From Planoprotostelium fungivorum (Eukaryota > Evosea > Variosea > Cavosteliida > Cavosteliaceae): a stretch of DNA of 64,000 nt. This document shows positions 603 through 46,700 of this stretch, in pieces. The stretch covers positions 1-64,000 of the forward strand of contig MDYQ01000017.1 of assembly GCA_003024175.1 (NCBI GenBank). Reading direction: 5' to 3'. A program made the position numbers and the translations under genes. The notes under the pieces are model-generated. The model saw nothing but the letters and a program-made list of their open reading frames with translations. It did not search any database and had not been told where the DNA came from. Positions within the stretch are counted from its first letter, which is position 1. The number at the start of each line of letters is the position of its first letter.

Positions 603-3201
603 CTGATTCCATTCAGAGTCTCAGCAACCCTACCGATCGTTCTGGGTTTCACCCATCCTGAAGATCAGCCGAGAGGAGGAAGAATTGAGAGCTAAGATCA
701 GGCAAGAACTGCAACAGATCGTCCCCTCCGTAGTTGCAAAGGTAAATGCATTATCATTTACATCGTTAGCGAATGATTAAATGTTTCAATCTATCAGCGA
801 TACTCAATTCTTATACAGGAGAAGCCCAAAGACCCTTATTTTATGAGACATGCTCTCATCGAGCAGTACATCGCAGACATAGAGGAGCAGACTGTCAGAG
901 ATATCCGAGTTCGAAACAAAGAAGACGAAAAGGCCGTCGCCGAACACAAAGTGAAACCTACCCATCTGACTTCCATCCATTATTGAACCATCCGTGAGGT
1001 TATCTTGGAGAAATGGAAAGAGGACAACCCAGATCGAGTGGCCATGTTGCAGGCCATTCATAAGAAGAAGATGGCCGTGAGTGTCTCTCCATCATCCGTC
1101 ATTAAATGAAAAACAAGGAATTAGACGAAGAGAAGGACCCTTTCTTCGTCACGAGAGCCTCCCTTCTAAAGAAAGTCCCCGCCATGACCGAAGAACTCAC
1201 TGCAGCTCATCAGAAGGACATCGACAAAGTGGTGAGTTCCGCAACCAAAGACGATGATGTTGGTGATCATCACACAGCTCGATGAGATCGTAGAACTCGG
1301 CACCGGTAAGAAGCCAGTTCGCGACCCGAAAGACAAGCCCGAATACATGTACCAGCTCCCGGAAGAACTGTGCGTCTCTCATCTCGTGTCAAGGCGTCCT
1401 AATTCACCACAGTCGAACCGTCCCCAACCGATACGAGCTCGAGCTGGCCAGCGTCATGCAGCAAGAGGTCATTCGAGAGGGTCAGGAGAACTCGAAGCCC
1501 AAGTTGGACGAGAACGGCGAGGAGATTCCGCCGGAAATTCCGAAAGCGAAGCCGGTGGAGAAGAAGGAAGACAAGGTGGAGAACCCGGAGGCGAGGGTGG
1601 ACGAGGTGGGGCGAAGAGATGACGTCATCTGACGTCACCAGTCCAAGTTGTACGCTCAGTTCGAGCCCCTCATGCCCGCGGAAGATCTACCTCCCAACGC
1701 TCCCCTCACTCAGAATGTTGAGTTTAATATGAAGGTATGTTTCTTTTTTACTTCTCTTTTCTCCATGATGGATTGACGCATCATCAGGCCATGAGTCGAA
1801 GCAACATCCGACCCACCCACAAGTTGATCATCAAGCATCTGCAAGACAACATCTTTGAATCCATGAAGAACGACGTCGGCGGCATCCGCCCCCGCTCCGA
1901 AATGGAAGACAAATTAGAGGAGATGCTCAAGTATTCCAAAACCGGCTCTGGAAGGTGAGACCCGTCACCCTCACGAGTCGGTGACGTCATTCAGGTACGG
2001 AGCCACCATGCTGGTGTGTCTGGCCTTGATATTCGGTTCGGCCATCCTTTGCTTCGGTTCGTGGGTGTCCCTTCCCACGAAATTATTCGGTTGGGTGTCA
2101 GAGAGAGACGAGGAGGACCGCGAATTCGAGCCTCCGTCTGGTACATGGATCCACAGCATCCTGCCGCACAACCGACCTCACGTGATGATACAGACATGAT
2201 GTAGAAGACTGAAGGGAGTAGGTCGATTTTCTCATCCCGAACGTGCAGAGGAAACCGAGAACGCTCGTGTTGGATCCCCAAATCTTCTGCAAGATCGTGT
2301 ACAACGTGAGTGTTTTATTCTGTTTTATTTTCGAGTTTTGAGACGAGACAGCAAACCATGGGTATCCGTGTCGTCATGAGACCTGGTTGGGACTACTTCC
2401 TTCAGATGGTATTCCCATACTTTTCCCATCTTTTTCTGATATATTTCAGGTCTCACCTCATTACGAGATTGTCCTCTTCACTGACGGACAGTGGGGAGTG
2501 AGTCACCTCATTTTATTCTATTTTACTCCTCTTCGTTTGGGACTCACCCCCTCAGGCTTTCGACAACCTCTACGGCCGCATCGACCCCGACAGAAAGTAC
2601 ATCAACTACAGAATTTACTCCGAAGGTACCTACACCTTGAACGGCAGATCTCTCAAGGTAAATCCATCTACAATGTTGTAGACCGACGTACCCCAGAACT
2701 TCCGCGGCCTGAATCGACCCACCGAGAGAATGATCATCTTGGAGCCCGATCCGATGAACTGTGATCTGTTTCCCAGGAACAGTTTGAACATTCCACCCTG
2801 GGACGGCAAAGACGATCGTGTCATGATGGACCTCGCCGAACTTCTCCAGGACGCCGCTTACTCTGGTGAGTAGAAAGACACCGATGCGTCATCTCACGCG
2901 TTGTGAACAGGAAACTGTGAGGCTTTCGTCTGCGCACTCAAGGACTTACCTTTCGAGAGCACAAACACGAAATGGGTGAAGACTCTCCATCTCATCATCA
3001 TGTGATCTGATGGACGTCCAGATGTACGATCTATCACCCGCCATCGTCAACCGAACGCAGAACACGAACGAGCTGATCAAGACGAAGAACAGACAAGTCC
3101 TGAGGGGTGTTGACTTTCCATATCCCCCCGGCTACGACGAGATGTCCGATCTACCACCGGGCTACACCGGACAGGAGCAGCCGGTCGAGAAGATCATCTA
3201 A
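603..3201 (+). CDS. TIM50: TIM50-like mitochondrial inner-membrane import subunit (FCP1/NIF phosphatase fold)
   Basis: The C-terminal half, from about 2236, carries the TIM50/FCP1-like domain: TLVLDPQIF, RPGWDYFLQ, YEIVLFTDGQW, SLKNFRGLNRPTERMIILEPD and IPPWDGKDDRVMMDL, in the order of yeast and human TIM50. TIM50 receives presequence proteins at the TIM23 channel. The phosphatase DxDx(T/V) motif is DPQIF, so phosphatase activity is unlikely, as in other TIM50s. A membrane segment at about 2002-2076 precedes the domain, as expected. Upstream lie about 350 charged, Lys/Glu-rich residues in several exons (640-1950), far longer than the normal TIM50 N-terminus; this could be an extension or a separate gene. 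The start is not resolved and no in-frame ATG is obvious before about 843. Introns include 2658-2696. Confidence 0.78.
2667..2682. repeat. Intronic inverted repeat TCTACAA-TG-TTGTAGA
   Basis: Seven-base arms TCTACAA/TTGTAGA around two bases, inside the 39-nt intron 2658-2696 of the TIM50-like gene. The intron boundary is supported because splicing at CCCCAG (2696) restores the TIM50 alignment LK-NFRGLNR. The same element recurs in introns of unrelated genes in this window. Confidence 0.85.
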
Positions 3202-3335
3202 AGAACATTCACAACTCGTTTCATTCTCTCTTCTTCCTCCTCTATACACGAAGAATGGTCTCGCGATGTGATGCGATGCTGCCGCCGAACGGGTTCTGGT
3301 GACGATCTGATCAGGGTGACGTTCGACTTGCGTCA

Positions 3336-6283
3336 TCATGTGATCTTGGGAAGGTGCAGGGGTTCAGAATATCTTGTCTTCCTCTGTGCGGTACCTTCTG
3401 TTCTCAGAGCTGCCGGTCCAGATTGACTCCTCGTGATTTCTGCGTTCTGTGATATGCTCTTGCCCAGCTTGGCCTTGTCCATCTGTCTTACCATGGTCCC
3501 CAGGTCTTTTCCTCTCCGTCTACCGGTGCCGAGATTCGTAGGCGTTGCGGCCACAGCTCGCACTTCGGGGTTCGAAGACAGACTGGCCCAGTAGGCTCGA
3601 TTCTCCATTGTGTACTGGAGGGTCACCGAGAGGGAGGGTAGAAATTTGACGAGGGCGCTGTACAGTGGCTGAACGAGAAAATCGATGAAGTTGAGGGACA
3701 CTTTGACTTCGTCGGTGTTGTTTCGATCGAAGTAGGGGGAGATGGGGAGTCCCATTTCTCTCTCTTTGTCTCCCTGCGATAATGATTAATGGGAAATGTT
3801 TACGAAACTCATATGGTATCTCACTTGATTCATGAATTCCTGGAAGACGCAGTCTGACCACGCCCTCGAGTTGACCGGTTTCGAATTGTTGGAGATATCG
3901 GCCGAGTGAAGTAAGACCGAGAACAGTAGCTGTCTGTGTGCCAGATTCTCCTTCGAGAATTGGTCGACCTTCAGATGGTCGTTTAATTTGGCCACCAGCT
4001 CAAAATGGTGGGCCATGTCCGTGAAGAGAATACCGTTGATGACAGACTTCCTCATCTCTGCAAACTGCTGGGGGTTGAGCCCGGCAAAGATGTCATGCCT
4101 CGTCCTCTCAAAAGTCTTGAAAGCGTACGATGCGTGGTAGTTCTCCAAGACGGAAATGTCGTTGTACGTGATGGCCAACTTAGACTTGGATGCGATTTGG
4201 AAGGAATTTGTGGTTGCGGGGTGATCCAGATCGTGACACACGGCGGCGACCATGAGCGAGAGGATGTCCAGGGATGTTAGCATGGACACCGCATTTCCCA
4301 TCTTGAGGAACATGAAGCAAGTGTGGGTGACATCGAAGGCGTGACGAAAATTGTGGTAAGGATTTGGTCGGTAGTGCTGTCGTATCGTCTCCAGCCATTT
4401 CATCAGGGTGGACTCTCTAATGTCGAACTTCTTGAGGAGTTGCAGATCTTTGAACATGGCCACCAGCAGTGGTATGAGGTTCTCTTCTTCTTGAGCAAAG
4501 ACGTCGAACTCCCACGAGAGGAGCTCGGATACGTCGGCGTCAGGGTATACGATGTAATCGTCGTCAGGAAAATCTTGAAACTCTTCCTTGTCTGCTGTGT
4601 CCCCCGCGTTGCCGGCAAACTGGGTGCGAATCCACTGCTGCGTCATCTTATCCAGAGATTCAGTGTTAACTACGGTCTCGATGTTACTGCTGGCTCGGAG
4701 TAGCTCCCTCCCTCCGTTACCCTTGATCGTCTTCAGAACGTTCTGCAGCCCCTGCTGGATCCTCTCCATCGAGGCTTCTTTGTTGATGACGATCTTTCCT
4801 AGGGTGGAGCTCATTGATGTGATGCGCATACCGTTGTCTACCGGTCTCGCCTTCACTAAAGACTTCATCATCTGCTTCTCTTCTTCCGTCTCCTCAGAGT
4901 TCAAGAGGTCGCCAGTGTTGTTCTGACGGTTTGAATTGGTACGAACGTAAACCAGGGTCAGCCGCCTCGTCAGCGCGTCGATCTCTGTGGTATCTCTCTG
5001 CGCCTGGTCTCTCAATTTGTTAATCTCCTGGTCCATCTTGATCAGGTCCGATTCCAGATGCATCCGTGTGTTCTTCTCCTCCAGCCACTGTTTCTCCAGG
5101 TATTCGTTCTGCTTGATCTTGTCCTCCATTTTCTTACCCAGGCCCTTCAGCTCGTTCTTCAGCTCTTCAATCTCGAATTCGAGGGCAGAAGTATCGTTGG
5201 GCATGCTAGTGGCCGGTCGTCTCTGCTCTTGGAGTTGCGTGAGGGCCAGTTGCGTCGTTTCCAGCTGCTGCCGTACGGTGATGGTCGATTTTTCCATCTG
5301 TAGTTCGAGATTGACATAGTCCACCTCCATGTCTAAGATCTTCTGGTCCCTCTTGGCCAGTTCCTCTCTCAGTCGATCGATCTCTTGATTCAAGATGGGA
5401 ATGTTGGATTTGTAGACTTCGGCTTCATCGTCTTCAGGGACCCGCCTGTTTTGCTCCCTCGAGTCTAATTCCACCTTTGAGAGGTCAAACTTGAGTTGGG
5501 TGTTCTGGGCGATGAGAAACGTCTTGGCTGCCTGTGCCTCTCCTTCTTGTTGCTTGAGCGTTTCCGTACTCTCACGAAGGATCCTCATCTCCTTCTGATA
5601 GTCGGCCAAAGTGTTTTTCAGGTAGAAGGCCTCGACGATGTTGCCCAACCGGTGGTAAAACGTCTCGACGCTGAAAGGGGCTGAAAAACAGTCGGCGGCT
5701 CCAGCTTTGACGCACAGGATGGCGGCGGCGTTTAATTCTTTCAGTGACAACACTGAGTGAATCAGCACACGATGTCGGTGAAAGAGACCAGAGTGAGATT
5801 TCAAGCGTCTGGTGCACAACGATAGCAGACTGAATTTACTCACTGACTACGGGGATCCGTTTGTTCAGCATCTTGATCTTCTCCAAAATCGATAAACCAT
5901 TATCTTTTCCAGCTTGAGCGATCGTGCATAATACAGCACAATATTTGTTTCTGTCTTCTCGGATGTCTCTGATGGCGTCCATCGATTCCTCTGCCATATG
6001 GACTATATCTGTATCACTACATGTCTCACATCATTCAATCACCTTGATAGCCAAGCTGTTGGACCACTTTACAGGCGGAACTGGGAATGGACGTGAACGT
6101 GCTGGTACCAATGATGAGAATGCGTGTCAGCTCTGGGACATGCTCCCAGTTCGACGGCGGTCGATTCAGACCGAAGGTCAAGCTGGACGTCTCCAGTTCG
6201 TGGTGCAACGTCTCTCTGCTCCTCTTTCCGATCCGATTGGCCTCGAGTGGAAGGACTGGACCGGAGTCCCCTCTTGACCGCAT
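3336..6283 (-). CDS. 3',5'-cyclic-nucleotide phosphodiesterase with N-terminal receiver-like domain
   Basis: The catalytic domain is a class I PDE: HNFRHAFDVTH, the metal motif HDLDHP and HSADISNNSKP, followed by PYFDRNNTDEV, so the metal-binding His and Asp are intact and cAMP or cGMP hydrolysis is expected. Before it lie about 300 residues of heptad-rich coiled coil. The N-terminus is a response-regulator fold: a beta strand ILIIGTS, a central strand YCAVLCTI where the phospho-Asp would be, and a last strand ending AGAADCFSAPFS. Asp is absent and the usual Lys-Pro is Ala-Pro, so it is a pseudo-receiver. The architecture recalls Dictyostelium RegA and animal PDE8, but PDE8 has a PAS domain where this has coiled coil. 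Introns 3774-3824, 5753-5843 and about 6010-6043 join cleanly. ATG is at 6281-6283. Confidence 0.95.
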
Positions 6284-6866: not shown

Positions 6867-8765
6867 ATGGAATACTCCAAACATCAGAGGAAGATCGACC
6901 TGGAGCTGATTTACAATGAGATGGACACGGGTGAATTGATCACTCCAGATGAACCGATATACGTAGAATCATCTGAGGAAGATGATATGGACGAAGAAGA
7001 CGACATGGAGCTCGGCGACTATTGTCCGGTGATACGAAACAAGATCTACTCTTCGATCTGATCGAATATAGCCCACTCCATCAGCAATTGACTCACAACA
7101 AAAAATGAAGAGCCTAGTCAAGACAGATTACCTCAAGAGGTGTTTTCCATGTCTCGTCTATCTCTGAATGACGAAAGATCAGTCTACAAGATCAGTGGAT
7201 AGGCAGAGGGGAAACCATTCGAAAGATCATCTTCTCTCTGACGCACATCAATCATCCCATCTTGATATCAGGAATCCCAGGCACCGGAAAGACACAGATC
7301 ACACGGTGCGAAGATCGTGCATCACCATCTCAATCGTCACCAGCTCCATCGTGAACGCCTTAAATCCGGTTCGAAAATCCTGGGTACAACACTCTCACGA
7401 TGACTCACCCAGGACGTTGTTCGAAGAGACCATCAATCAGCTCTACGGTCAACTGCCCTCCCACGCCAACAACTACCGGTACTCTATCAAATGCAAGAGC
7501 TCCGCTCAGTTCGTGGGCACGTTAGACGACTTGTTAGACGCAGACTCTTCTGATGCTCATGATCCCATCATCATGGTGATCGTCCGACCATGTTCATCGC
7601 ATGTGACCTCCGTGACTGATGCGAGTATAGGTCTTCGACGTGATGAACAGATTCTCCAACAGCTCCATCTTCTGGACGTTGACCGAACTTCCCACGAGAT
7701 TTCCACGAATTCGCGTGGTGTTCATCACTCGATCTAGTTGGATCGATCTCCTCTCCCAGGGATCCGGTGGAGTCACTCCTCTCCTCTTCGATTTTCGCAA
7801 CTACACCGAAGGTGGTCACATCATCGCATTGCGAATACTGATGAGAGAAACAGAGGAGGCCATTCAGATCCTCTTGACGAAAACACCGAGAGAGGACCCG
7901 CAGTTGTGGCCCGCCTTCATTCAACTGTTCTATTCCATCATCTGTGGCATCACCAGCAGCATCAGTGAACTCCTGTATCTGTCTGAAGTCGTGTTCGCAA
8001 GGTACAGACAACCCGAGACGAGGGATGCGAACGAACTGAGAGGCCTCCTCACACCTCACATCAAGATACCAACACTGTACGATCTCTTCTCCAGGAGACT
8101 GACACCACAAGATTATCTGTCACAGAACGTCAGGCCCACACAGAGGACCAGTGGGTCGCATTCGAATGAGACCGTGTTGACTTTTCCATAGTGGACGTGA
8201 GCGGTGGATTATCACTCGTCAGTCGTTACCTTCTCGTGGCTTCTTATTTGGCCTCGCACATTCCATCAAAATTCGATCAACAGGTGAGGCTCGTTGTAGT
8301 GTGTCGATGACCTCTTCAGATCTTCAGCGCCCAATCGGTGAAGGGAAAGAAGAGAACCGCATCGAAGAAGGTGAGTTGGAGATGGAAAGCGTACAGAATG
8401 AACGTGAAACAGATCGCCGATCAATTCAAAGCGCCGAGACAGTTCTCTCTGGAGAGGCTGTTGGTTATCTACACTTGTGTAGTGAAGAACAGTGGGGAGA
8501 CAGATCCACTCTTGACGATGGGAAGGAATCGAAACAATCAAGTCTATCAAGAGGTGACCACCATCTTCATTATCTTAATCGCATGATCAAGCGTCGTTGA
8601 TTCGTTCAGATTGCAACTCTCGTGACGAACAAAATGATCCTCTCCGTCTCTGCTTACGGCCAGAAGATCGAGCCCATGTTCAAGTGTGCCATCAGCCATC
8701 AGATGCTAGAAATTCTGGCCACGTCACTCAGTATAGACGTCTCGCACTATCTGCAAGTCTCATGA
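6867..8765 (+). CDS. ORC5: Origin recognition complex subunit 5
   Basis: An AAA+ module begins near 7197: WIGRGETIRKI, then a Walker A ILISGIPGTGKTQI and, after introns, TLFEETINQLYGQL, DPIIMVFDVMNRF in the Walker B position and FPRIRVVFITR. The second half has ORC5 landmarks: YLLVASYLASHIPSKFD, a basic KGKKRTASKK stretch, FSLERLLVIYTCV and a final winged-helix segment ending SIDVSHYLQVS before TGA at 8763-8765. ORC5 is part of the complex that marks replication origins. The 5' end is uncertain: the acidic 64-residue frame 6867-7061 may be the first exon or a small upstream gene, and the join to the Walker A exon is not settled. At least six short introns are present. Confidence 0.83.
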
Positions 8766-11946: not shown

Positions 11947-11997
11947 CGTGCTTGCTGCTCCACAGTCATAGATCACAGCTTCTGCGAACAAACCAAT

Positions 11998-18645: not shown

Positions 18646-21331
18646 ATGAGCGGACCTCCCCCTATCCTCTTTCCCTCACAGGTGTGTATCTTTCTGTGTC
18701 ATTCGAGATCTCTGTTTATGAGCATATCATCATCGTCTCTCTGTTACAAATGGATAGACTGACGACGAATCAGAGGAGATTGAGGCACTTGTGCAGTGTT
18801 GGTGCGCGAAAATTGAACGCCATATCTGACCTCAATCTCCTGCATACCTTCTATACATTACACGCCGGTGAGTATAATCCGGACATAGACACAGTCGTTC
18901 GATGAATGAAAGAATCAACGTCTTCCGTGTCGGTATGTTATCGATCTGATTCGCTTCACAGGGGCAATGCACACTCTCGACGATCTAATCCAACCGTTTT
19001 ACGTGAGCGAGCTCATTCCAAATAGCCTGGTGAGCCTTCACTCGCATGTTGTCTCCGCGAATGTCTTCTACTCGTCAACAATGCATCGTCTCCCTCTTCG
19101 CCTCGATTCGATCACATTTCTCACATGTTCATCTATTCCCTTCTATCATCTCCACATTACAAAGATTGACGAATTCATCCACAGAATCCTTGGTGGAATC
19201 ACATCAACAACATCGTCGTACCAGATGAGAGCGGGGAGCTGATCACGGCCGAGATCTCGATGACATCTCTTCAGAAGGTGAGAAGCCTCACGATATTTCA
19301 TCGTCTACAACGTTGTAGGACGTCGTATTCACCGTCGCATTGTGGAGTTGCCACAATCCTAGGTCACCGGTGAGGACTTTTATTCGATTTTATTCTCAAT
19401 GATTGGGACAGGTCCCAAAGATAAACAGCTTCGCTTCGATGTCACCCAACATCACTCACGAGACGCATCGATTGCTGGGGTCAGCCGTGGTCAATCTAGA
19501 ATATCTACAATACCTCGGTAGAGATCACAGACATTTTTCCAATCTACAACCCAACAGTATCATCATCGAATTGGTGAGTGACACAGCATATCAAATGGAA
19601 TCAGATCACATCATACCACAAACATATCATCATCCAGATGATCGTCATCATCCATCACGATCGATGATCATAATCATGAAGTCAAAATGATGATGATCAG
19701 GTGGATGGCTTCTATCGAGTCCTGAGTGGTCCCGCCTCCGACATCGACACGGAAGAATACACGAACGGTCACTCTTACTCGTCCACCCCACATTCGGCGC
19801 CCAACAATTTGAATTTGAGCGTGCACACACCCAACAGCCCTTCTATCGGCACATTCGTCACACCGATGAGCATACCCAAGAGACAAGGGAGTCACACGAA
19901 CCTCGTCAAGGTCTGTAGAGGACTATTTCATCATCGTCGATGATGATGATGCACGATGATGATGGATGTCTTCTCATCGTGACGTAGATGGAATCTACTT
20001 CTGCGGGGATCAACGGAGCGATACAGATCAATCAATCAGGTCGTCATACGAAACAAGTGAGACGCACATCAAATCATCCATATTGAAATCATCCATATTG
20101 AAATCATCCATATTGAAATCGTCGATGGTAACTGATTCGAACAGACGATGTCCTACTCCATATCGGAATTCGTTGGGTAGATTGCAATGAGATCTCATAA
20201 AGGAGACTGACGAGAGACAGATTGGTGACAGCTGGTAAGAAATTGATGGAACTGAAGGAGGAACAAAGAATGATATCGAAGAGGATAATATCGCAGAATA
20301 ACACGACGAAGAGACAACAAGAGAAGGTGGATGTTCGTCTACAATGATGTAGATTGACCCCGGCAGGCCAAGTACAGAGAAAAGTTAGCCTTGAGGGTCT
20401 CAGAATTAAGAAAAACGGTCCAAGCTGAAACGGAGAGGTTACAGAGAGGTGAATTGGTGGATTTTCATCGTCTACAACTCTGTAGATCGTGAACTCGCCG
20501 CCAATTATCGTAGCCATTTTCTACCCAGGGCCAGACGATTGAGTAAATCACAAGTTATACTCCTTGCATCGAAGAGAATATTGGAAGACGACAGACAATT
20601 GTACAGCTCCGACCTGTGAGATCTTTGTCTCGTTGTAGATGAACTGATCGGGGTAGAAAATTGTGTAACAGTCTGTGTCACTCTGCACAGTCGAGGACAT
20701 ATCAACTCATCGCCCAACTCCGCCACATATTTATCATCAATTCGAATCAAGACGTGAGATCTACAACGATGTAGATGTAGAGTGACTCCATGCAGAGCAA
20801 TCTTAAATCGTACAGCATCTGCAGTTTCCCTCTGCCAAACTCAGATTTCATCGGCTGTGACGAAGAAGTGAGATCCATGTCGACACACATAGAACGTCGA
20901 CCGTACGAGCGAGTGAGAACTAAACAACGTCGACAGGCCATCGCTACGGCTCTGGGATCAGTATCCCACGTTCTGTGCATGATCTCAAAATACCTCCGAA
21001 TTCCGCTGAGATATCCCATCAATCCAATGTGCTCTAGATCTGTCATTCGAGACGATATATCGTCCCATTTTTTGTCCCAAAAGTGACACTCCATCAGATC
21101 TTGCGGTAGAACTGATGGAAAGCTCGCAGGTTCCCTCTATTCTCCAGGGGTGGACGTAGGTTCGAATACGGAGTCTTTCTGTTGAACAAGAACATCGAGC
21201 AGCTGCTCAACAGCCAAGGTTTAGAGGTCTTGGACCTGAGAAACACCCTGCCGAATCTGAAGGTGAAGAGAAGACTTGAAATACATGAAGAGGCTGACGA
21301 CAACGTAGGTCCTTCTGTCCTTCCTGGCTGA
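18646..21331 (+). CDS. UVRAG: UVRAG/Vps38-like subunit of PI3-kinase complex II
   Basis: The start [12 protein letters not shown] joins to [18 protein letters not shown], as in UVRAG. A C2-like segment follows ([32 protein letters not shown]). Next come a Ser-rich linker and a coiled coil ([55 protein letters not shown]). The C-terminal BARA2-like part has [90 protein letters not shown] and [15 protein letters not shown], aligning closely with human UVRAG. It should bind Beclin-1/Vps30 with Vps34 on endosomes. About 14 introns, many 37-42 nt, four containing the TCTACAAC inverted repeat (near 19304, 20338, 20471 and 20760). Confidence 0.9.
19304..19319. repeat. Intronic palindrome TCTACAACGTTGTAG at a 3' splice site
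   Basis: The last 15 bases of the 41-nt intron 19278-19318 in the UVRAG-like gene form TCTACAACGTTGTAG, so the final GTAG of the palindrome is the acceptor itself. Splicing gives [13 protein letters not shown]. Confidence 0.85.
20071..20115 (+). repeat. Three exact 15-bp tandem copies coding SSILK
   Basis: Three identical copies of aaatcatccatattg inside the UVRAG-like linker encode repeated Ser-Ser-Ile-Leu-Lys. Exact identity suggests recent slippage in a disordered, phosphorylatable linker. Confidence 0.9.
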
Positions 21332-28039: not shown

Positions 28040-30497
28040 ATGGTCCCACCGGCGCTTCCGGCAGTCTGGGGTGCCCCAGTGAGATTCTATCTCAGACCCA
28101 GCTGTAGAATCCATCACCAACGATTAGGTCACTGGAGGATGTTGTCGGATTTCTCATCGGCGTCCAATGCACTTCATGCAGCTCGTTCTGCAGAGGATAA
28201 GGCGTCCAGATTCTACTTGCCTTATCACGCATCACCTGATACGTTGACATCGAAAGAGGATGAGCTGCGACGACACGGAAAGTTGTTCTATTACGGCTGG
28301 AGCAGCCATTCTGAGGCTCTAAGACAGTGGTGCACCAAGGTGTGTGCATTGCATCTCAACATCATTCTGTGACGGTTGTGGAGCTGTCATGTGACTTGAC
28401 ACAGCCACATGAGAACGGACACATCGACTCTTCACGCTTCTGTACGAGAAATTTAGTCTTGAGCCTATTGAGAGAAGAGAAGAAGGTGAAGATGAAGCAT
28501 TATCTCATGATAATAATGATCAGGTCAAATTGGTGCTCGCTGAGGATTCCTCTTCTACTTTTGGGAAATCCCAGAGAGAAGTGATCATCAACTTGACATT
28601 GCACATCGTCCTCTGATCGACCGTCAAGGTGTTCGAGATATTGTCACGTCTACTGCCCGAAAAGATCGAAGGCATCTACTCATTCGAAGATGCCATGCGA
28701 TCATCTTCTCCTCTCACGTCTCCCACCTCTTCTCCAAAGTGGTATCGTCTCCTTCAACTTCCATTCTTTCTTCACTTGAATGTCTGAACGAATGACAGGA
28801 ACGGTCGGGACGTCATCGCAAAGATGTCGGATGAGCTGATGCATTGGCTGATGACGAGCAAGAGAGAAGAGAGGGAAGAGAGAGAGAAGGCCATCGGTAT
28901 CAACGAGAGCATATCGAATCGTGGAGATGATCACATCATGTCATCACGCGGAACCTCTCTCGGGTGAAATTCTCGTTCTCATCGCATTCATCTCTGTGAT
29001 CCGATTTCGTCTGTATCTAAACTTGATTCACACGAAACGCTATGTGATGATGTTCGCCGATGTTGATGATCGATCAGGTACGAAGATGAAGTGGGGGGGA
29101 GAGAGAACATCAGAGTCATGTCTATGAATCTATGGCACGGAGCTGAGACGACTGGATCTAAACCGAGTGACGTGGCAAAATTGATAGAGACCACGCGAGC
29201 GGGTGAGAAAATTCTTCGCTGAGAAAACTCACGGAGAATTCAGAGATCGTGGGACTGCAGGAGACGTACAGCCTCCCACTGTCTTACGCACATGCTGATC
29301 TACAACGAAGAACGGATAACACGCCGTTCATTCTATCTGCTCTACCTGGTGAGTGTGATTTATTCGGAGGGTGTGATGATATGACGACGTCGCGCTGATC
29401 TACAACGTTGTAGAGGGGTGGAACATGTTACAGCAGGGATATCCACACCCACATCGATCTTGTTATCATCCTTCGGCCATATTGACTCGGCTCCCTATCC
29501 TGGAGGTATCATCATCACATCATCACATCATCGTGTCGTCACACTCTCTGTATCTTCGAGACGTGTACTCATCTACAACGTTGTAGATCCTTCCCAAGAA
29601 TTGGGGTGTCGTTTTAGAATCAAAAGGCGGTCGTCCCCTTCTCTTCTTCAACGTTCACTTACCCTCCGTACCGTACGAGCCGTTTCACCTCTTAGACATC
29701 CCTTACGAAGGTCTTCCATCCATCAAAGGAGAAGCTGATGCCATAGCATCTGCAGAATCGACGCGCGAGGCATACGTAAGAGACGTGATATCTTGCATGA
29801 AGGAGACGAAAGACAAGTATCTTGCGAGGTGAGAATAGATTTTCATCTCACACGAATTAATTTGGATTTATTCTTATTTTGGAAGGAAACCACTGGTGAT
29901 CGTGACTGGAGATTTCAATGAACCTTCTCACTTGGATTGGAATGTCATGCATTCCATAGCAGGGTACTGTCCCCACCCTGTCAGATGGCCAGTGTCTGAC
30001 GCTCTACAACGAGCCGATCTGGTCGATACGTACCGTACTCACAACGGTCCCTCTTATCGTGACCCAGGTGAGTGAGGAATGGGCTTTGTAGATTGAGATT
30101 TCACAGGATTTTCTTGGTGCACTCAGACGGACGAGGTAAGAGCGTTGTAGATGGAATTTCCTCTGAAATATTCCGAGTTATCAGAGGCAGACCATCATGA
30201 TCGCATCGACATGATTTATGTGGGTGGAGAAAGTTCTTGGAAGATTCTGGACAGTCAGCTGATCCAAGAGTGAGACGAACATCACACACTCCACGATAGA
30301 CCCACCACACTTGAGAATATGTGACAGACGCATTACACTATAGACAAGATAATATGTACAACGGGAGCACTAAACGACATATTATATAGACACTGTCGAT
30401 TCATACTGTCGATGTCCCTCTGAATTGTACCAGAGAGAAGGCCATCAGTGACCACAGAGGAGTCCTCAGTACCCTAGAGATTCTCCGTGTACAATAA
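28040..30497 (+). CDS. Endonuclease/exonuclease/phosphatase-fold enzyme with unknown N-terminal region
   Basis: From about 29090 the EEP fold is clear: IRVMSMNLWHGAETTG, EIVGLQETYSLPLSYAHADL (catalytic Glu), GGRPLLFFNVHLPS, VIVTGDFNEPSHLDWN, DRIDMIYV and the final SDHRGVLSTLEIL (SDH motif), so metal and active-site residues are present. Substrates of this fold include DNA, RNA, phosphoinositides and sphingomyelin; which applies here is unclear. Upstream exons encode KFSLEPIERREEGEDEALSH, VKLVLAEDSSSTFGKSQREV, VFEILSRLLPEKIEGIYSFE and IAKMSDELMHWLMTSKREER with no recognised domain. The first piece (28040-28372, with GKLFYYGWSSHSEALRQWC) may be a separate small gene. Introns at 29340-29413 and 29516-29586 end in TCTACAACGTTGTAG. 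Confidence 0.72.
29399..29414. repeat. Intronic palindrome TCTACAACGTTGTAGA
   Basis: Perfect 16-bp palindrome at the 3' end of an intron in the EEP-fold gene; its internal TAG supplies the acceptor. Confidence 0.85.
29571..29588. repeat. Intronic palindrome ATCTACAACGTTGTAGAT
   Basis: Perfect 18-bp palindrome spanning the 3' splice site at 29586 in the EEP-fold gene. The last two bases are the first exon bases of ILPKNWG. It is the second such element in this gene, 170 bp after the first. Confidence 0.88.
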
Positions 30498-30761: not shown

Positions 30762-32353
30762 TCAATAATTGAGAGAATTCGGTGAAGGCAAAAAGTGGGC
30801 CAGCTCGATGACTTCCAATCCCATGATGTCTTGCTTGTGCGTGATACACATGGTGCCTGTACATCCATTCAACTCGGATGGATGTGATTTATCTGCAGAA
30901 ATGACGCCTCACAATCGACGTAAAATTCTTCGCGGTCACCCCTACGCTTGACCAACACCATCTTATTCTTCTTCCACACATTCAACTACCTCCGTCAGAT
31001 CTTCCATCTACAACCTACCACCACCTCCACCGGCACCATGAGCGTATTCGCCATGGTGTCCCTGAACAACTTGTACGAGTGAGTTTTCTCTCAAATTTCT
31101 CTCGAGTTTCCGCACCTTATCACGGTTGGTCACGGCGCTCGACGGCTTCATGACTTGGAGCATGAGAAGTTCCTCTGGTGTCTTTTGAGGGAGTGGATAG
31201 GGGAAGCCAGTGAGATCCAGGTAAGCTCGATTGGCGTAGTAGATGGTTCCTACGGAATCCCACACCATGGCGGGGACGTCTAAAAAATCACAGACGGAAA
31301 TGCAGTTCTGAGATGATGGTCATCATCGTGATCGTGATCACGTTGATGATGCGTGATGTTCACCTCGATCTGATGATGAAAGTCGTGGATCATCTGTGTC
31401 ATCTGTGGCGGTGTGACGAATTTTAGAATGTCATCTCTCTTCCTGGTCGTTGTAGATATAGAGTTGAAAACGATGTACGACTGTGAGGCATCACCGCTCC
31501 AAGCGCTGGTGAGATGTCAATCTACAACGATGTAGATGGATGGAGTTACGTCATAACTTTCTTCGAGATTTGATCTAATTGTTCGTCGGTAATGATGGTT
31601 TTGTACAGGGCAGGTGTTTGCATGCGGGTGTTCTCTTCTGATGCGTCAGTGATGTTTGACATGAGAAGGAACGAAAGGTAAACACAAGATGATGGACACC
31701 TGATGGAGAAGTCAAGAGGGATAAGACACTGAAAGCAGGTGAAGTGCATGAATATGGACTCTGGGAACTACTCGGCGTAAATGGGTGGACATGCTGTGAA
31801 GTAAGAATCTGCATTACCGTGATGTGTCTTCTGAATGGTGTATTGGAGGAAGGGATCGAGGTTCTGCTGCGATATACTACCGAGTCATCAATGGTTGCAT
31901 TTTGGATGGATGACACGCATCAAGGCTGGGAGATGCTGAACATTCACCTCCGATACCAGTTGAGCAAAAGACGTTCGATTGTGTGGCTGTAATGGAGACA
32001 CAACCGTATCTTCCATCATCCTCGGTTGCATCAGTGTGGTGCGCAGATCTTCACTTCTTTGCGTGACTAAATCATCGTCGAGACTTCCACCTGCCTTCTT
32101 CGCCACTTTTGATGAAATCACCGTTGTTAATGTTGAATCGTCCGTTGAATACTTCTTTTTCGGTTTCTCATCCGTACAAAACAGATTCCTGCTGCTGCAT
32201 CGCTTACAGGGACGTCCTGTGTGATGCATTGGCATCGCAATCATAATGCAGTGATCGATTCCGATTACCTTCATCACAGGTTAATTTCTTCGCTCTACAG
32301 GTAGAACATGCTCTGACCAATCTTTTTTTCTTGTTCGCCTCGCTGTCGTCCAT
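30762..32353 (-). CDS. Zn2Cys6 binuclear-cluster and PAS-domain transcription regulator (ERT1/AcuK-like)
   Basis: Starts MDDSEANKKKRLVRACSTC. After a 51-nt intron the zinc cluster is complete with spacing C-x2-C-x6-C-x5-C-x2-C-x6-C (CSTCRAKKLTC, CKRCSSRNLFC). A basic-to-acidic linker follows, then a PAS domain: MVWDSVGTIYYANRAYLDLT, EELLMLQVMKPSSAVTNRDK, LFRDTMANTLM, KRRGDREEFYVDCEASF and GTMCITHKQDIMGLEVIELA. Zn cluster followed by PAS is the layout of fungal gluconeogenesis activators (Ert1/AcuK/Rds2). Orthology is unproven; amoebozoa do have some Zn2Cys6 proteins. Splices between 31080 and 30960 are provisional. It lies 62 bp downstream of the aquaporin gene on the same strand. Confidence 0.85.
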
Positions 32354-33769: not shown

Positions 33770-35159
33770 TCATCTCTGGCAGTCCAACCTCTCCAAGTCC
33801 ATCTGTCGTCACCATCAGCTCGGCTCATCGTGTCGATCATCATCTCACCTCTAAAGAGGCCAGCGAGGAAATAAATTCTGATCTGCAAGTGTTCTTCCTC
33901 CTCGAAATTTCTCCCGAGTTTTCTCGGAAGAATTCGTGAGAAGAGATGGCCTCCAGCGATGGTCTCTTGCCTGTCCTCGTTAGTCTCCCGCGCGATTCAA
34001 ATTTCAAACTCACCGGGGTCGGTCGTCAGAATGGAGCTCACGAGGTTACGAGCCGCCTGGGAGATGTGATGAGTGTCTTTTGGAAAAGACCAATCATTCG
34101 ACTGGATCTTCTGATAGGTCGTCTCTAGTTTGTCTGTCTGGAACGGAGGTGTGCCCACCAGCATGGTGTACCTGTCATCATGTGAGGAAGATGCGAGGAA
34201 ACATTTCAACGCACATGATGACACCTATGCTCCAGATATCGGCCTGAGAAGAGTCAGATGGTTGTCGATCTACAACGAGATAGATACCTTGAAGGAGTGA
34301 CCTCTCTCTTTGTCCAAAACTTCTGGTGCCATGTAGTTGGGGGTCCCGCACTTTTCGCTGTTTGAAAATTAAATCGGGCGAGAAACGATCACCTCACCGT
34401 CTCAATTCGTCGGCGTGTCTTAATTTCGTCGACAACCCGAAATCTGCGATTTTGATCTGCGAACCCTGCAGCAGCAGGTTTCCCGGTCTACGTGAAGCGA
34501 TCAGCTACACAATGAGAGAGGAAGAGCCTCACTTCAGATCACGATGCAAGATGAATCGATCGTGCATGTACCCCACGGCTTCGATGATCTGCTTGGTGTA
34601 GAACTTGACTTCACTCTCCGCCATCCTCTTCTTCTCTTGTAAGAGGTGACTGACGGTCTGGGATGGTGTCAGTACTTTCTTGAGAGGTGTGGATGATCAC
34701 CTGACGTTCACACTTCTCCAAGAGGATGTAATGAAAGTTTTCATCCTCGAAATAGTCGTGGAAACCGACAATGTTAGGATGTTCTAGAGACTTGTGGATG
34801 CGAATCTCTCGTCTCAGTCGCTGATTGTACTACATCTTTGTCAGCCATGTCAAGAGCCATTTCAATGTGTTCACCAATTGTTCGATCACGGGCTGTCTCT
34901 GTTCCTTCTGAACCAGTTTACAAGCGTGAGACTTTCCAGTCTTCAGGTCCTGCATTTCAATGCAGCTCCCAAATCGACCCTATCCTCTTCAGATGACAGT
35001 CACTCCCCGTGATCCTCTCACCTTCCCGAGCTGTTCTCCTCGAACGTATGAGGTTGTCACGGGTTGATTCTGAAGCTTCTCAACCTGGTGACCATTCACG
35101 GGAGCATCCCTCGAACACGTCTTGATGGTGAGTGAATTGAAGATGCTCTGGCAGTCCAT
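33770..35159 (-). CDS. Polo-type protein kinase without visible polo boxes
   Basis: A kinase of the PLK type: [142 protein letters not shown] and RPSLEAISSHEFF. Catalytic Lys, HRD and DFG are all present. The last exons after HEFF are short (RRKNTCRSEFISSLASLE) and the next 300 bp encode no polo box, so it may be a kinase-only form. The paralogue at 51297-54017 keeps polo boxes and shares the [15 protein letters not shown] segment. Start at 35157-35159 is tentative. Introns at the N-lobe are 38-46 nt. Confidence 0.87.
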
Positions 35160-36558: not shown

Positions 36559-37392
36559 ATGACCGTTGACCTTTACTTAGCGACGAGATATTTCTTCCTT
36601 AGCAACAACAGCACCCCACTACACTCTACCGACAGAGGTGAAGACTCACTGTTTAAATCATCTCATGCGTCATCAGACCGCCGACTCTGTCGACTTCGTC
36701 ACGAACATGGTGAGTTTCCCGTTATCGCACACGATCCACCTAGAGAAGAAAAGAAACAATCACAACAGCCCGGCGTCACCCCCGCTCTCCTCTTCACCTA
36801 CAACAGTGAGCACCCTCCCCACACCTTGCGTAACCTACGTACAATTCCCCTGGGACAATTGATTCAACCCCTGGCGACACAAGCTATATTTGGAGCGTTG
36901 AGGCGGAGCTTCTCACCTGGTGATCTGAACCTGTTCCAGTACATCTACGGTGTCTTCTTGCATCCAATAGATTGGATCGTGGGAAGAAATTCGCCCTCCA
37001 CGGTGAGCGTCTACACCCTTGTAGATGGATGAGACTGACGTGAGGTCGCAGTGCAGGCAGAAGGCTGACGACTGTATCGAGCCTTCTCTCGATGTGAGAT
37101 GGCGCGTTGTAGATGAAAAATAACAGAAATAGGTACAATACAGTGGCTCAACTGAGGACTGAATATATCAAACGTAGCCAATCTGTCTCCCAACCTGGTG
37201 CACATTGAACTCTGACACTGTATCACCTCCACTCCCTCCAAGGAGTCTGCCAGGTGAGCCGCGTTGTAGACGATCAATAACATCACTAATGTAACCACAG
37301 GTACAAGGAGTTAGTGCAGCTTATAGAAGGAGCAACAACACTGGTGACGTGACGGAACCAGGTCGCAGGTTGGAGACGTTAGAGGGAGAAGG
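36559..37392 (+). other. Coding-like but unresolved exons
   Basis: Several stretches look like exons between GTGAG and AG signals: LNHLMRHQTADSVDFVTNM, NNHNSPASPPLSSSPTT, then SFSPGDLNLFQYIYGVFLHP followed by a GTGAGCG donor at 37003. No ATG-to-stop model is convincing and no domain is recognised. They may be the 5' exons of the kinase-like piece that follows, or remains of one. Confidence 0.35.
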
Positions 37393-38501: not shown

Positions 38502-39128
38502 TCATTTCGTAGAATGGACCACACGTGGATCAGACAAGAGCAGCCGTACAGTCTCACTGTGAATCTTGTAGGCTGCAAACCTGATAGCTGCATTGGCTTG
38601 TGCTGATGGGTCCACACGAGAATCGGACAAGAGCAACCTTACAGTCTCAGCGCGACCCTTGATGGCTGAGCATCTGATGGCTTCATTGGCTTGTGCTGAT
38701 GGGTCCACACGAGAATCGGACAATAGCAGCCACACAGTCTCACTGTGACCCTTCTTGGCTGCATATCTGATGGCTTCATTGGCTCGTGCCGATGGGTCCA
38801 CACGAGAATCGGACAAGAGTAGTCCTACAGTCTCACTGTGACCCCTCCTGGCTGCCCATATGATGGCATAGTTGTCTTGTGCTGATGGGTGCGCACGAGG
38901 ATCATTACGAGCCAACAGGAAGCGTAAAGACTCGGCTTTGCCTTCTTGAACTTCAAAAAGCAGATCATCGTAGGTGAGCCAGTCAGTGAGGCTGTCCACT
39001 GAGAACGTCAGAGGGGCTTGTCTACCTTTGAGTGTCTCACCGATATCTTTCCACAACTTGCAGGTCTGGCGAAGAACACTAAACTGTCTCCTCTTTGTGT
39101 GGTGGTGTGATTTCATCGCCGTCTGCAA
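38502..39128 (-). CDS. Ankyrin-repeat protein with F-box-like N-terminus
   Basis: The N-terminal part (RRQFSVLRQTCKLWKDIGET) resembles the second half of an F-box. Four to five ankyrin-like units follow, each with HSETVGLLLSDSRVDPSA or a close variant. Units are about 102 bp (34 residues) and nearly identical at DNA level. An in-frame ATG is at about 39116; the first codon at 39128 is not ATG, and the acceptor CTCACAG at about 39157 suggests an upstream exon carrying the F-box start. The family often supplies substrate receptors for SCF ligases. Stop at 38502-38504. Confidence 0.83.
   Translation of the reverse strand: MQTAMKSHHHTKRRQFSVLRQTCKLWKDIGETLKGRQAPLTFSVDSLTDWLTYDDLLFEVQEGKAESLRFLLARNDPRAHPSAQDNYAIIWAARRGHSETVGLLLSDSRVDPSARANEAIRYAAKKGHSETVWLLLSDSRVDPSAQANEAIRCSAIKGRAETVRLLLSDSRVDPSAQANAAIRFAAYKIHSETVRLLLSDPRVVHSTK
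38570..38880 (-). repeat. Near-identical 102-bp tandem ankyrin units
   Basis: Three to four tandem units share blocks such as gatgggtccacacgagaatc (plus strand), at about 38608, 38698 and 38788-38800. Differences are only a few bases per unit, which suggests recent expansion or gene conversion. Confidence 0.85.
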
Positions 39129-39442
39129 GATGGCTCTTGTAACGTCTGTGAGAGAATACCGTTAGACATCACTTGTCTCCTCTGTTGTGCAGAAAGAAGA
39201 TCAGATCTTGTAGGTCTCAGAATAAAGCCCGCTCATTCAGAATAAAATACATTTTATTCACGATTGAGCCAAGAGAGTGGTTTTGTTGAGAAGAAGACCC
39301 ACTCTATTCATCTCGTGGCTTGATAATCCAGATAGAAGTGCAACATCAGACAACCAACACACTATCCAAAAGATCGACCTACGAGAAGATCGATCTCAAT
39401 AATATCAATGGAAGAAGAGTGATGATGAAGAGATGAGCATCA

Positions 39443-40195: not shown

Positions 40196-40280
40196 GTCGA
40201 GGGTGATGTGATGTGATGGTGATATCACAATTTCATTTTTTTCCGTTTTACATCGTCATTCGAAACCAACGACAGCCACC
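40196..40280. promoter_or_regulatory. 85-bp divergent promoter, PPR/MAPR genes
   Basis: Contains a GTGATGTGATGTGATGGTGAT simple repeat followed by a T-rich run (CATTTTTTTCCGTTTTAC) and then the MAPR start. It must serve both genes. Confidence 0.5.
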
Positions 40281-40795: not shown

Positions 40796-40822
40796 ACACA
40801 AGTCCTCGTTGTAGATCGAATT

Positions 40823-42480
40823 TTACTGGAACTTTTTGGCGGGAGGAGCGGCGACGAATTGCTTCTGCAAGTACTCGGGCACGAAGGCGACGGCGTTGCC
40901 TGACAGAATTCAATCATCTACAACGTTGTAGACAATCGACTCACAGACCAAGAGACACAGGAGAGAATTGTTGACAAAGTGTCCGACGATAGCCGTGGCG
41001 GCGAGGGTGCCCAATAGAAGGGGACGGTTGTGAATGAAAGAGGCTACCTTCTTAGATGTATCGTGATACTTGTCTTCCACGAAAGCCATATACTCGAACG
41101 TGTCGCGCGTGTTGACTTCTTTACCCTGGAAATATTGAGCCGATCTACAACGAAGAAATTTCTTACGAAGATTCTCTCCCAGGGGACGTTGAGCTGGACG
41201 ATCTCGTTGAACCAAGCGAGGACGACTGCCCACAAGGCGGCGAGAACAAAGAGGGAGAGGATGGTGAAGTTGAAGTAGAGGTAGATCCTGATGATGACAT
41301 GAGTCGATGGTGGCGGTGATGAGACGGACTCACATGACGGCCACGTTGTAGACGGCGAGTAAACCGTAGAATTCTTTCGCTCTCTTTCGGGTGAGGACTT
41401 GGTGGAGGAAAGTGATCTCGTTCTCGAATTTGAGGAATCTACACGAGCGTTAATGTCACGCTCATCGTCCATGTACAGATGATGATGACGGTGATGATGG
41501 AGGATGGGAGATGATGTCAGATGGTGATGATGCAGATGACAAGTGTACCTCTCATGCAGGCTGTGACCTCTCACGGCAATGTGAGTGTTCGAGGTGGGAG
41601 GTGCCAAGACTCTCTCCTTCTGAGCAAGAACCTTCTCTTGCTGGGCCTCGACCGGTGTGGGCTCTTCAAAATGAGTCGGAACAGCACCCGTCTCTGCGAT
41701 GTGAGAAGATGATGTAGTCGGTGTCGGCTTCGAATTGGAAGGTGTGTAAGAAGAAGAGGGGGTGACACCTTGAGGGGTGTCTGATCTCTCTCGGTTCTTC
41801 TTGCTGGGCTGTGTGATTTTGAATCAGATGGATGTGGATGTTCGATCGATTCGAAATGAGGGGAGTGATGTTGAAGAGATAGTGTGTGATGGAGGAAGAT
41901 GTGGATGGACGATCTTCTGATCGAATGATTTCGATCTGTTTACCTTATCGACAAGAGGGAACCAGTTGGAGATGACAGTTGTAGGTTGGAGGAGGGTCTG
42001 AAGGGAACCAACGGTGGCCTGTCCTTCGAAACTGTGTGCACCAATTGCATCCCAATCCCACACGACAAATTTGACCTCGTCCTGTTTTCGTTTAGATAAC
42101 ACATCTAAGACCAAGGCGCAGGGTTTCTTCTGCAATCGTCACGAAAATGTAAAGTATATCACCTCTTCCGTGAGAGGTTGTGTCTTTCCCTCTACAGTTC
42201 TGACTTTGAATTGGAACTTCTCGTTGAAGGTAGGATCGAGCGTCTTCTTGACGATCTTCGTCTTCTTTTCATACTTTCTAAAGTGAGCGATGATGTAAGG
42301 ATCTGATAGTCCGTTACGATCACGGCTGCTGAGAGATCGAGCGGCGACGATCTCCACGTCCAGAAGACCAAAATCGGCACCAGCAATTGGAGGGATGTAT
42401 TGAAGATTGACCTTCACGTCTCCCGTGATGGCGTGCTTGTCTTCTTTCTTGGTGGGAAGAGGTTGTGGTGCGGACTCCAT
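40823..42480 (-). CDS. C2-domain protein with reticulon-like C-terminal membrane hairpins
   Basis: The N-terminal C2 domain (about residues 20-180) reads GLLDVEIVAARSLSSRDRNG, SDPYIIAHFRKYEKKTKIVK, DPTFNEKFQFKV, VVWDWDAIGAHSFEG with several Ca2+-loop Asp residues. A Ser/Thr/Pro linker follows (SSSYTPSNSKPTPTTSSSHI). The C-terminal part has FLHQVLTRKRAKEFYGLLAV, then a membrane hairpin IYLYFNFTILSLFVLAALWA, VVLAWFNEIVQLNVPWERIF, and a second hydrophobic pair NRPLLLGTLAATAIVGHFVN, NSLLCLL. This layout recalls reticulon/ARL6IP1 ER-shaping proteins tethered by a C2 domain, but family membership is inferred from topology only. Start 42478-42480; stop 40823-40825. The last intron carries a perfect TCTACAACGTTGTAGA. 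Confidence 0.8.
40917..40932. repeat. Intronic palindrome TCTACAACGTTGTAGA
   Basis: Perfect 16-bp palindrome in the middle of the 45-nt last intron of the C2/reticulon-like gene (minus strand). This one is internal rather than at the acceptor. Confidence 0.88.
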
Positions 42481-42589
42481 GATATGATGAATGACGCCCA
42501 GAGAAAGTAAAATTGAGTGCCCGGCCCGAATATTTGAACCCACCCGCATCTTGCATCTCAACCTTTTCCATCATCAACATCACACAGAG
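42481..42589. promoter_or_regulatory. 109-bp divergent promoter
   Basis: Separates the C2/reticulon-like start (minus) from the CxxC protein start (plus); both promoters must lie here. Confidence 0.5.
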
Positions 42590-43503: not shown

Positions 43504-43711
43504 AAGAGAATCTTTTGATGTGTTGTGATGTGCCGTCCATTCAACAACATGGGATCTGACGCACGATCACAGACACGATGGATGTTGAAGAGTTTACCTC
43601 TCTATATCGAAGATTGTGGGATGAGGTGTGCTTCGTGAGCCACTTACCGTCACCGCTTCCAAGGCGACATATGACATGACAAGAGCTTGACTTGTGGACA
43701 GCTCTCAGAAG

Positions 43712-46700
43712 ATGCTCATTTCGAAACAGATGTGGGGCCCGTCGACCCTCCTTCTTCTATCGATTCTTTTCTTAGTCAGCGGTGATGTCTCAACTATCGA
43801 TGTCGGGCCGAATGACAGCATCCAATCAGGTGATGAGCTTCTTTTCTATAGAGGTGTGCTGATGGAGGATTACAGTGATAGAAAATACAATAGGCGATTT
43901 GAAAATCCATCTAGCCTCAAATTATACGTTTGGAAATGTGACACTGAACGTCAATCGATCGAATGCACACATCCTCTTTGTTGGAAATCAAACAGTGCTC
44001 GATTCAGCTGTCATGAGATTCCAGGGTTTTGCTTCCGTTGAATTTAGAGGTAATACCATACAATGAGCACCGACGGTGGATGTCTGACAAAACCGCAGAC
44101 ATACTGTTTCAAAGGTCAAGGGACACAATTCTATCTTTCGAAAATGTAAATCGTGTCACCTTGTCTCAATGCAATATCAACCACACAGACCATGCCTTTC
44201 TGTCCATCAACGGCGGTTTTATTCTCTCCGTCCATCACTGCACCTTCGCCGACATCACTACCTCGACAGGTGATCATACCCCCGACATTTACGAGCGATC
44301 TCACCCACCTAGGTCCTCTCATCCATACGACAGGAGTCATCACCAACATCGACTTTCGTTCATCTTCTTTTTCCAACATCAACAGCAAGGTTGAAGGAGG
44401 CATTATCAGTCTAGAATCCGACACCATCAACGTCACCTTCCACGACATCATCTTCGATGGCCTCAAGAACTACGACTATCCCAACGATGTCTTCATTGCG
44501 GGAGGTCTTCAATTCAATCTCCCAGCCATCGACACGCTCCTCTTTGATGGATGTTCTTTCGTGAACTGCGAAGGTGAGGCAGCGTCCTCTGTGTTCGTGT
44601 CTGATGAGATCGAGCAGGTACTTATGGTGCACCCATCAAATTGAGTGGTGGTAGCTATGAGAAAGTCATCATCAGAGACAGCCAGTTCGTTTCCAATGTC
44701 GGTTTGAGTGAGTGTGTCACATCATCCGTATTTCGATATTCATTTTATTTCCATTTATTTTCTCAGGCCACATCTACTTCGACTGGTACACGACCATCGG
44801 TGCAGTTCACATGGACAACACGACGTTCACTGGCCTCCAATCGGTCAGCGAGATCTATCTCGGTCTACAACTCTCATCGGGGGTCATCATCTCGGCCGGC
44901 GTCATCGGCAGCTTCAACATGAACACGATCACCGTCTTGAGTTGTCTCATGGGGCCAGAATCTGCCTTCTTAGCTCTCATGCCCACTTATAACAGCCCAG
45001 AGAGGCCCATGGTAGTCGGTTCCGTTCACATCTACAATTTAGAGGTAAATTCAGCATCTACAATGTTGTAGATTGACGGAGAAAGGTCTCTGGAAATCAA
45101 TTGTCTTCGATTTTCTTGGACGGTGGTACGATCGAGAACGTCACCGTTGTAGACAGCACATTCGAATACAACGATGCTTTATCTCAGAAGAACTGGGTGG
45201 CGGGTGAAATGTCGTAGAAATTTCCGCGTCGACTGAATCAAGGCAGGCGTCATGTCTTCGACTCAAACCATGATCATTCGAAACGTCCGCGTTGTAGATT
45301 GTGAATTCTCCTTCAATACGGGATTGTCGGGTGCCGTGTCCATCATGGGTGTCATAGATGATATCTCTTTTGATCACGTGACCGTCACTGTCAACCGAGC
45401 CAATAGCGATGTGGGGGGTATGCGAAATTTCATCGAATTTCACGTGAAGTTTCAAAGGTGGTATGATGATCTACACAAAGTATCCCACTCGATTGGTCAT
45501 GAGAGACATGATCTTCCGTGGAAATTCCGCGGCGAGCAGTGGAGGGGCGTTGTACTTGCTCAACGTGGCCACCGCGTCAATCTACAACTCGACATTCTTT
45601 CAGAATTCTCTGACGAATTATCAAGTCAATCTACAACGAGGCGGTGCCATCTTCGTCGATCAATCTCCCGCCGTGAGTTGTCATTTGAATTTTGAATCTC
45701 ACGTACCACACAGACGGCCTCCCTTCTATTCACCGATTGCACCTTTTCTTTCAATAGCGGGAACATGGGTGCGGCGATCTACACCAGTGTAGATACAACC
45801 TTTACCGGTGGCTCCATTGGTAACCACCCTGTGGTACAGAGCAGCATCTATGACGTCAGCTCTGGTCTGACCTTCACCGGCACGAGTTTTTCTGATCGAA
45901 AATTCGCGGCTGGGAGCATCATCAAGAGTCAGAGAAATCTCGCGGGTACGACACGTTACGTATTCAAAAAGTGTACGATGACCTTCGGGTTCTCTCATTC
46001 GCTGAACGTTCCCGGAATAGTCGGTGAACATTCACACAAAATTCTCGGAAATTGTGACGGAGTGCAGGTGAATACGTATTCCATCACAATCGAGTGTCTC
46101 AGGTGTTGAGTCTCAATATTCCCTCCTCTGTCGTTGTAGATCGATTTTCCTACGATAATAATGTGGTCGAGAAAGACAACATCCAAGAGGTGGTCCGTAG
46201 CTTAGCAGTCAATCTACAACGCCTCTCGTTGTCAGGCAACCACTTGAATGACGTACAGTTAGATGGAATCAGTTTGGAGAAATTGATCGGGCTCGATCTG
46301 AGTCACAATAAGGTGTGACGTCATCTGATGACATCTGACGTTTTCAAGTTGAAAAGGATCGGTACATTGGATGCTCCAAATCTGAGGGAACTGAGGGCCA
46401 GCCGAAATGAACTATTGGACATGAATTTTCTGGAAAATCTGCGGGAGATTTCACATCTCAACCTGTCAGACAATGACATCAAACAATCGTTGGACCTCAT
46501 CTACAACTTACCAAATCTGCAGGTGAATTTGATTTGATTTCGTTTTATTCTCTGAGCCTGACTTCGTATGATAGACACTCGATCTACAACGCAATCGTAT
46601 ACACGGAAACCTGACTGCTATTCATTCACTGAAGAACCTCACCACCCTCCTTCTATCCCAAAATGTGATTTCCGGCGAAATTTCATCTTACGTATCAGAC

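Follow-up and report, generated by a model that had tools for sequence, protein, structure and literature searches.

An intron-enriched, highly iterated putative binding motif in the genes of Planoprotostelium fungivorum

The genome of Planoprotostelium fungivorum (assembly GCA_003024175.1) carries a short word, the 16-bp palindrome TCTACAACGTTGTAGA with its half-site CGTTGTAGAT, which recurs on both strands through gene bodies and is densest in introns. It had been noticed in positions 1 to 64,000 of contig MDYQ01000017.1 (this whole stretch of 64,000 nucleotides (nt) is called the window), where an initial annotation described an inverted repeat inside introns of unrelated genes and offered a splicing hairpin, a bound site or the ends of an introner-like element as explanations. 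The bound site is best supported, by copies on both strands, dimer spacing and a pull on synonymous codons, while the hairpin fails at the one stem position examined and the introner does not hold as a general account. In the whole genome (36,859,091 bases in 471 contigs) the exact 16-mer occurs at 681 places and the half-site at 7,984, compared with 0 for the reversed 16-mer and 62 for the control word of the half-site. The best account, to which we give an even chance from sequence evidence, would be a dimeric DNA-level binding motif that is secondarily used in splicing. We are about evenly confident that it represents an intron-enriched, highly iterated putative binding motif in a eukaryote which was not found described in the literature searched; the 14-bp palindrome core did not occur in the 15 matches listed out of 291 papers with one or more of four motif words.

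Intron positions were taken from a self-trained gene finder run on 25 sequences (305,415 bases), and all introns are predictions. The output comprised 1,185 introns (1,186 counting sequence ends) with a median of 45 nt, mostly of the form GTGA...CAG after an exonic AG. Stretches L031-L035 had been picked for holding palindromes. A less biased set of 21 sequences (255,415 bases) consists of the window and 20 stretches from base 10,001 of contigs, and is called 'less biased' only, since 17 of the 20 contigs had been met in motif or U2 searches and the window had been flagged beforehand. Around 31.4 kb, one gene or more escaped the finder, and a few of the 972 introns of the less biased set are spurious, stemming from a tandem repeat in L016. 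As a homology check, we removed the 11 predicted introns from the GMP synthase gene and obtained a protein that aligns collinearly with six relatives. One junction of this model, the first, was mis-set. Of its four motif introns, three interrupt the alignment where it has no gaps, and one lies in a variable region. A search with GMP synthase matched a partial metagenome protein at 83%, a EukProt transcriptome at 69% and further sequences, dictyostelids among them, at 50-59%, a pattern that would fit an amoebozoan.

The window itself holds 13 matches to TCTACAACGTTGTAGA at up to three mismatches, with 0.24 expected and none of 100 shuffles reaching 13, so the claim of a frequency far above chance is confirmed here as it is genome-wide. 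All eleven copies listed earlier were recovered among these matches. They had been described as perfect or with one or two central changes, which agrees with the counts (three perfect, at 29399, 29572 and 40917, five with one mismatch and three with two), except that 19304-19319 is changed in its last base and not in its centre. An additional three-mismatch copy lies at 34269-34284. The exonic look-alike is present, at 45778-45793 rather than 45779-45794. Ten of the eleven copies lie in gene-model introns and the eleventh (31521) in a minus-strand intron read by hand (31506-31549), as had been expected.

Exact palindromes were intronic in 21 of 21 cases, with none exonic in the 305 kb modelled, and in 6 of 6 cases in the less biased set. 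Half-sites in the less biased set numbered 44 in introns, 22 in exons and 7 in intergenic DNA, across 55.6, 161.3 and 38.5 kb respectively, while 300 letter-shuffled words averaged 0.097, 0.27 and 0.093. The count by class that had been proposed as a check thus places introns (~450-fold) above exons (~81-fold) and intergenic DNA (~75-fold), yet the word is not intron-only; introns hold 44 of the 73 half-sites, i.e. over half. Of the seven intergenic sites, those at 31448 and 31520 were assigned by hand to the overlooked gene. In this set 84 of 972 introns (8.6%) carry the motif, which would extrapolate to some 12,000 of ~140,000 introns genome-wide. Motif introns are like other introns in length and phase, and clustering by gene was rejected, as there was no excess between-gene variation (p = 0.74, less biased set). 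One gene, L034:1660-5332, has the motif in 11 of its 20 introns, in a stretch picked for its palindromes.

Exonic copies, found in both orientations, are written into codon choice. In complete genes from all 25 sequences, Val-Val-Asp is spelled GTT GTA GAT at 10 of 26 sites (0.25 expected) and Leu-Gln-Arg is spelled CTA CAA CGA at 7 of 28 (0.14 expected). The top four over-used codon triplets among 39,771 all spell motif parts, and in synonymous shuffles of 136 genes the motif 8-mers rank as the top 3 of 9,729, at ~4-5 times expectation. An alignment of GMP synthase with its relatives shows no insertion at its Val-Val-Asp site. Exonic copies thus arise by substitution, not insertion.

The anatomy of the motif resembles that of a dimeric site. 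Beyond the palindrome copies, both strands share the consensus TGGC(T/G)CGTTGTAGATGGA, and in 83 sense sites (palindromes included) the conserved letters stop ~9 bases upstream and 5 downstream of GTTGTAG. Flank letters are graded like a binding matrix, with approximately zero information outside some 20 bp. Half-sites facing each other 3-30 bp apart occur at 193 places (control 30), some being a palindrome with a third half-site, and diverging half-sites at 55 (control 44). Among the facing pairs, 41 of the 193 have a spacing of 13 bp (control 3), where an even spread across the 28 spacings would give ~7. In the 26 of these 41 pairs that were listed with their interiors, the interiors differ from one another outside the half-site letters, making them unlike copies of one element. 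With an offset of 20 bp, two bound proteins would sit on the same face of the helix. Of 42 sampled copies whose outer arms are intact, 21 keep the ACGT centre, a variation compatible with a loop as well as with a dimer centre. Both orientations, a graded consensus and a preferred half-site spacing, the marks of a dimeric site, were thus found. Dimeric sites such as those of E2F, bZIP or bHLH proteins likewise have palindromic and half-site forms, a graded consensus and occurrence on both strands. The motif differs from them in lying in introns and at synonymous exon sites, not between genes.

From these features we infer protein binding, with binding in gene-body chromatin or transcription as the selected trait. 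The motif would be the double-stranded recognition site of a putative sequence-specific DNA-binding protein. Two half-sites back to back would form the palindrome, and two facing half-sites with 13 bp between their GTTGTAG cores would form a second dimer form. Sites are spread across gene bodies, also at synonymous exon positions, and are densest in introns, which are free of coding constraint. A sense copy at a predicted intron end provides its TAG as the acceptor, with a left arm of TGAC instead of TGGC giving a branch-point-like word.

Several findings weigh against a double-stranded binding site. The strand balance is imperfect, with 41 sense and 23 antisense non-acceptor half-sites in introns of up to 60 nt. 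Half-site density is 0.79 per kb in introns and 0.18 in intergenic DNA, and only 9 of 72 motif introns, compared with 165 of 706 introns overall, lie in the first quarter of their gene (Kolmogorov–Smirnov p = 0.05); low intergenic density and first-quarter scarcity are both unlike what ordinary promoters or enhancers would show. An excess of facing over diverging half-sites is expected anyway, since acceptor copies sit at the intron end. Finally, the similarity between certain introns extends beyond the motif.

One alternative is a sequence attractor that needs no bound regulator, in which near-matches are drawn towards the motif by biased repair, conversion or DNA modification, as has been proposed for HIP1 of cyanobacteria. 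HIP1 is a short palindrome of very high genome frequency for which a link to repair or methylation was proposed (PMC4390886). The similar enrichment over shuffled words in exons and intergenic DNA, the effect on synonymous codon choice and the existence of a palindromic form would all suit an attractor. However, it should act equally on introns and intergenic DNA, and introns hold ~4 times as many sites per kb; the preferred 13-bp spacing is not expected either. While a HIP-type palindrome would be over-represented in coding sequence as well, exons held half-sites and one near-palindrome only. Compared with HIP1, the motif is eukaryotic, intron-concentrated and has half-sites ~12 times as numerous as palindromes (7,984 to 681). 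We consider an attractor improbable.

Similarly improbable is an RNA splicing element, either a hairpin formed by the palindrome or a word that a splicing factor recognises in RNA. The restriction of exact palindromes to introns and the tolerance for change in the would-be loop are consistent with it, as is the use of the motif in splice sites. Among the 98 intronic sites in sense orientation, 31 provide the TAG of the acceptor, and the tetramer upstream is TGAC at 16 and TGGC at 1 of these acceptor sites, compared with TGAC at 2 and TGGC at 20 of the 132 other intronic sites (Fisher p = 6e-8). By the branch-point consensus, this split means that one base change yields a branch-point-like word ~10 bases before the AG. 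Acceptor use would be the co-option of a pre-existing site. The observation that TAG is the acceptor in some introns and the repeat mid-intron in others is borne out, e.g. by 20449..20485 and 20327..20366. The sense surplus in short introns also speaks for an RNA element. Once palindromes and acceptors are set aside, 47 intronic half-sites are sense and 33 are antisense. Genome-wide, GGTGAG is followed within 30 nt by 1,366 sense sites (control 27) and 881 antisense sites (control 18), a sense surplus partly explained by acceptor use. Among 100 listed sense rows, TGAC stands immediately 5' of the half-site in 25 (by eye), with one place given twice and two sites too close to the donor for acceptor use. 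Antisense copies this common are not expected of a word read in RNA alone, and exon copies likewise occur in both orientations. At the fourth stem position, the single one examined, we counted 681 wild-type copies, 6 one-sided variants and 1 two-sided, non-complementary variant genome-wide, i.e. no compensatory change. The exact partner arm is also absent from most motif introns, ~98 of 140 carrying a half-site alone, and the hairpin put forward earlier is not supported. The copies of U2 small nuclear RNA (snRNA) looked at carry the canonical branch-point recognition sequence GUGUAGUAUC, which counts against an RNA element and by which a changed branch-point code was rejected. U2 snRNA matched at 15 genomic places, 14 of them above the family cut-off.

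Slightly less probable still is that the motif marks what is left of intron-creating mobile elements of the introner kind, whose terminal repeats would have fused into the palindrome. Published introners are repeated sequences in introns of unrelated genes, with similarity that reaches near both splice boundaries (PMC9860276); the class similarity of the motif stops at ~20 bp, and the word also occurs in exons via codon choice. We compared 1,179 introns with each other by BLAST (low-complexity filter, E<=1e-5) and obtained 96 pairs including same-gene pairs, of which 25 bear the motif on both sides. Six pairs from different genes match nearly end to end, two of them with the motif on both sides. 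In one match, introns 48582-48629 and L033:1306-1342 are 89% identical over 46 columns, while their host kinases share 28% protein identity. These pairs favour introner remnants, as does the resemblance of facing pairs to 13-bp terminal repeats. The motif introns are, on the other side, ordinary in length, phase and gene spread, and an introner fails as a general account because the class-wide conserved letters stop at ~20 bp and the exonic copies are codon choices, with an insertion-free alignment in GMP synthase. Thus, introner-like turnover may be retained in part, for some introns. Three further readings were rejected: viral spread, as the exact 18-mer had no match in a viral collection; a bacterial source, as 15 stretches of a bacterial and archaeal collection matched at one place each (~4 expected at even base use) and none was iterated; and strand domains, as contig C1 past ~185 kb has sites on both strands.

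Returning to a dimeric binding motif, a bolder form of it is possible, and we put it forward tentatively. Eukaryotic gene bodies could then be marked by a DNA address that is iterated across the genome, in about 1 in 11 introns and in synonymous codons, as the dimeric site of a single dedicated protein, and one base change could turn a site into a branch point and 3' splice site, coupling chromatin binding to intron definition. We know of no match in eukaryotes to a ~8,000-copy 10-mer that is mostly intronic in the less biased set and bends exon codon choice. DNA uptake sequences of Neisseria and Pasteurellaceae (PMC2346458) likewise consist of a short word with hundreds to thousands of copies, also within reading frames; the motif differs by its intron enrichment and preferred dimer spacing. 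The motif provides a system in which DNA-level selection via introns and synonymous sites can be tested, and a route from binding site to 3' splice site. It is also a caution that words recurring in introns are not necessarily introners or RNA elements.

In the window, the plus-strand intron 2658..2696 (39 nt, near-palindrome at 2667-2682) lies in a gene that we take to be TIM50-like, and its removal joins RSLK to NFRGLNRP. The following boundaries come from gene models unless stated otherwise. In the gene named UVRAG-like in the initial annotation, 19278..19318 (+, 41 nt) uses the palindrome TAG as acceptor. Further plus-strand introns are 20327..20366 (40 nt), with a near-palindrome mid-intron followed by TTGAC and CAG, 20449..20485 (37 nt), whose near-palindrome ends in the acceptor TAG, and 20754..20795 (42 nt), with a near-palindrome close to the donor. 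Exact palindromes provide the TAG acceptor in 29349..29413 (+, 65 nt), in the gene named EEP-fold earlier, and in 29506..29586 (+, 81 nt). The minus-strand intron 31506..31549 (44 nt, near-palindrome 31521-31536) joins PAS-like coding frames of the gene missed by the finder, with boundaries set by hand. A kinase intron with a half-site lies at 34244..34287 (-, 44 nt); in a paralogous kinase of 53% protein identity, another half-site intron (53087-53125) precedes the same D-I-W-S motif. Near-palindromes also occur in 37003..37051 (+, 49 nt) and 45045..45085 (+, 41 nt), and an exact palindrome in 40900..40944 (-, 45 nt). The three half-sites that had been named as intron ends do end predicted plus-strand introns, namely 46878..46917 (40 nt, acceptor TGACGCGTTGTAG), 49231..49269 (39 nt, acceptor ATTGACTCGTTGTAG) and 55205..55253 (49 nt). 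Exonic half-sites are exemplified by 45290..45299 (+), with codons GTT GTA GAT for Val-Val-Asp, and by the antisense ATCTACAACG at 29298..29307 (+), in a Leu-Gln-Arg frame. The 48-nt receptor kinase intron 48582..48629 (+), with a ATTGACTCGTTGTAG acceptor, is the one placed by its BLAST match to L033:1306-1342, and by hand both introns seem to lie shortly upstream of the kinase domain. Some kinase matches in the genome come as two hits of equal score, which may reflect duplication within or between contigs.

Other palindromic or two-strand words are also enriched in introns of the window and L011-L035, namely TGACGTCA (often TGATGACGTCATCA), GAAATTTC, TGGCGGGAA and TCACGTGA, of which we take TGGCGGGAA to be E2F-like and TGACGTCA to be CRE-like. 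In the same sequences, TTTTATTC occurs in introns on the sense strand alone (18 copies, with 0 on the antisense strand), which is RNA-like and sets it apart from the motif. In exons, GAAATTTC (17 vs 3.0) and CATTCGAA (29 vs 6.2) exceed synonymous shuffles. Other perfect 12-bp palindromes reach ~2 times their shuffles in introns (38 vs 17.1), exons (41 vs 24.4) and intergenic DNA (17 vs 7.6), and general intron hairpins were rejected because this excess is alike in all three. Inverted repeats with 6-10 bp spacers are somewhat raised in introns (24 vs 8.2 for a 9-bp spacer). Finally, the tandem repeat at L016:7197-7448 consists of GTGAGATRCAATAGAAG-like units that the gene finder called as a run of 48-nt introns, and a direct repeat with copies 93 bp apart lies at 38516-38887 of the window.

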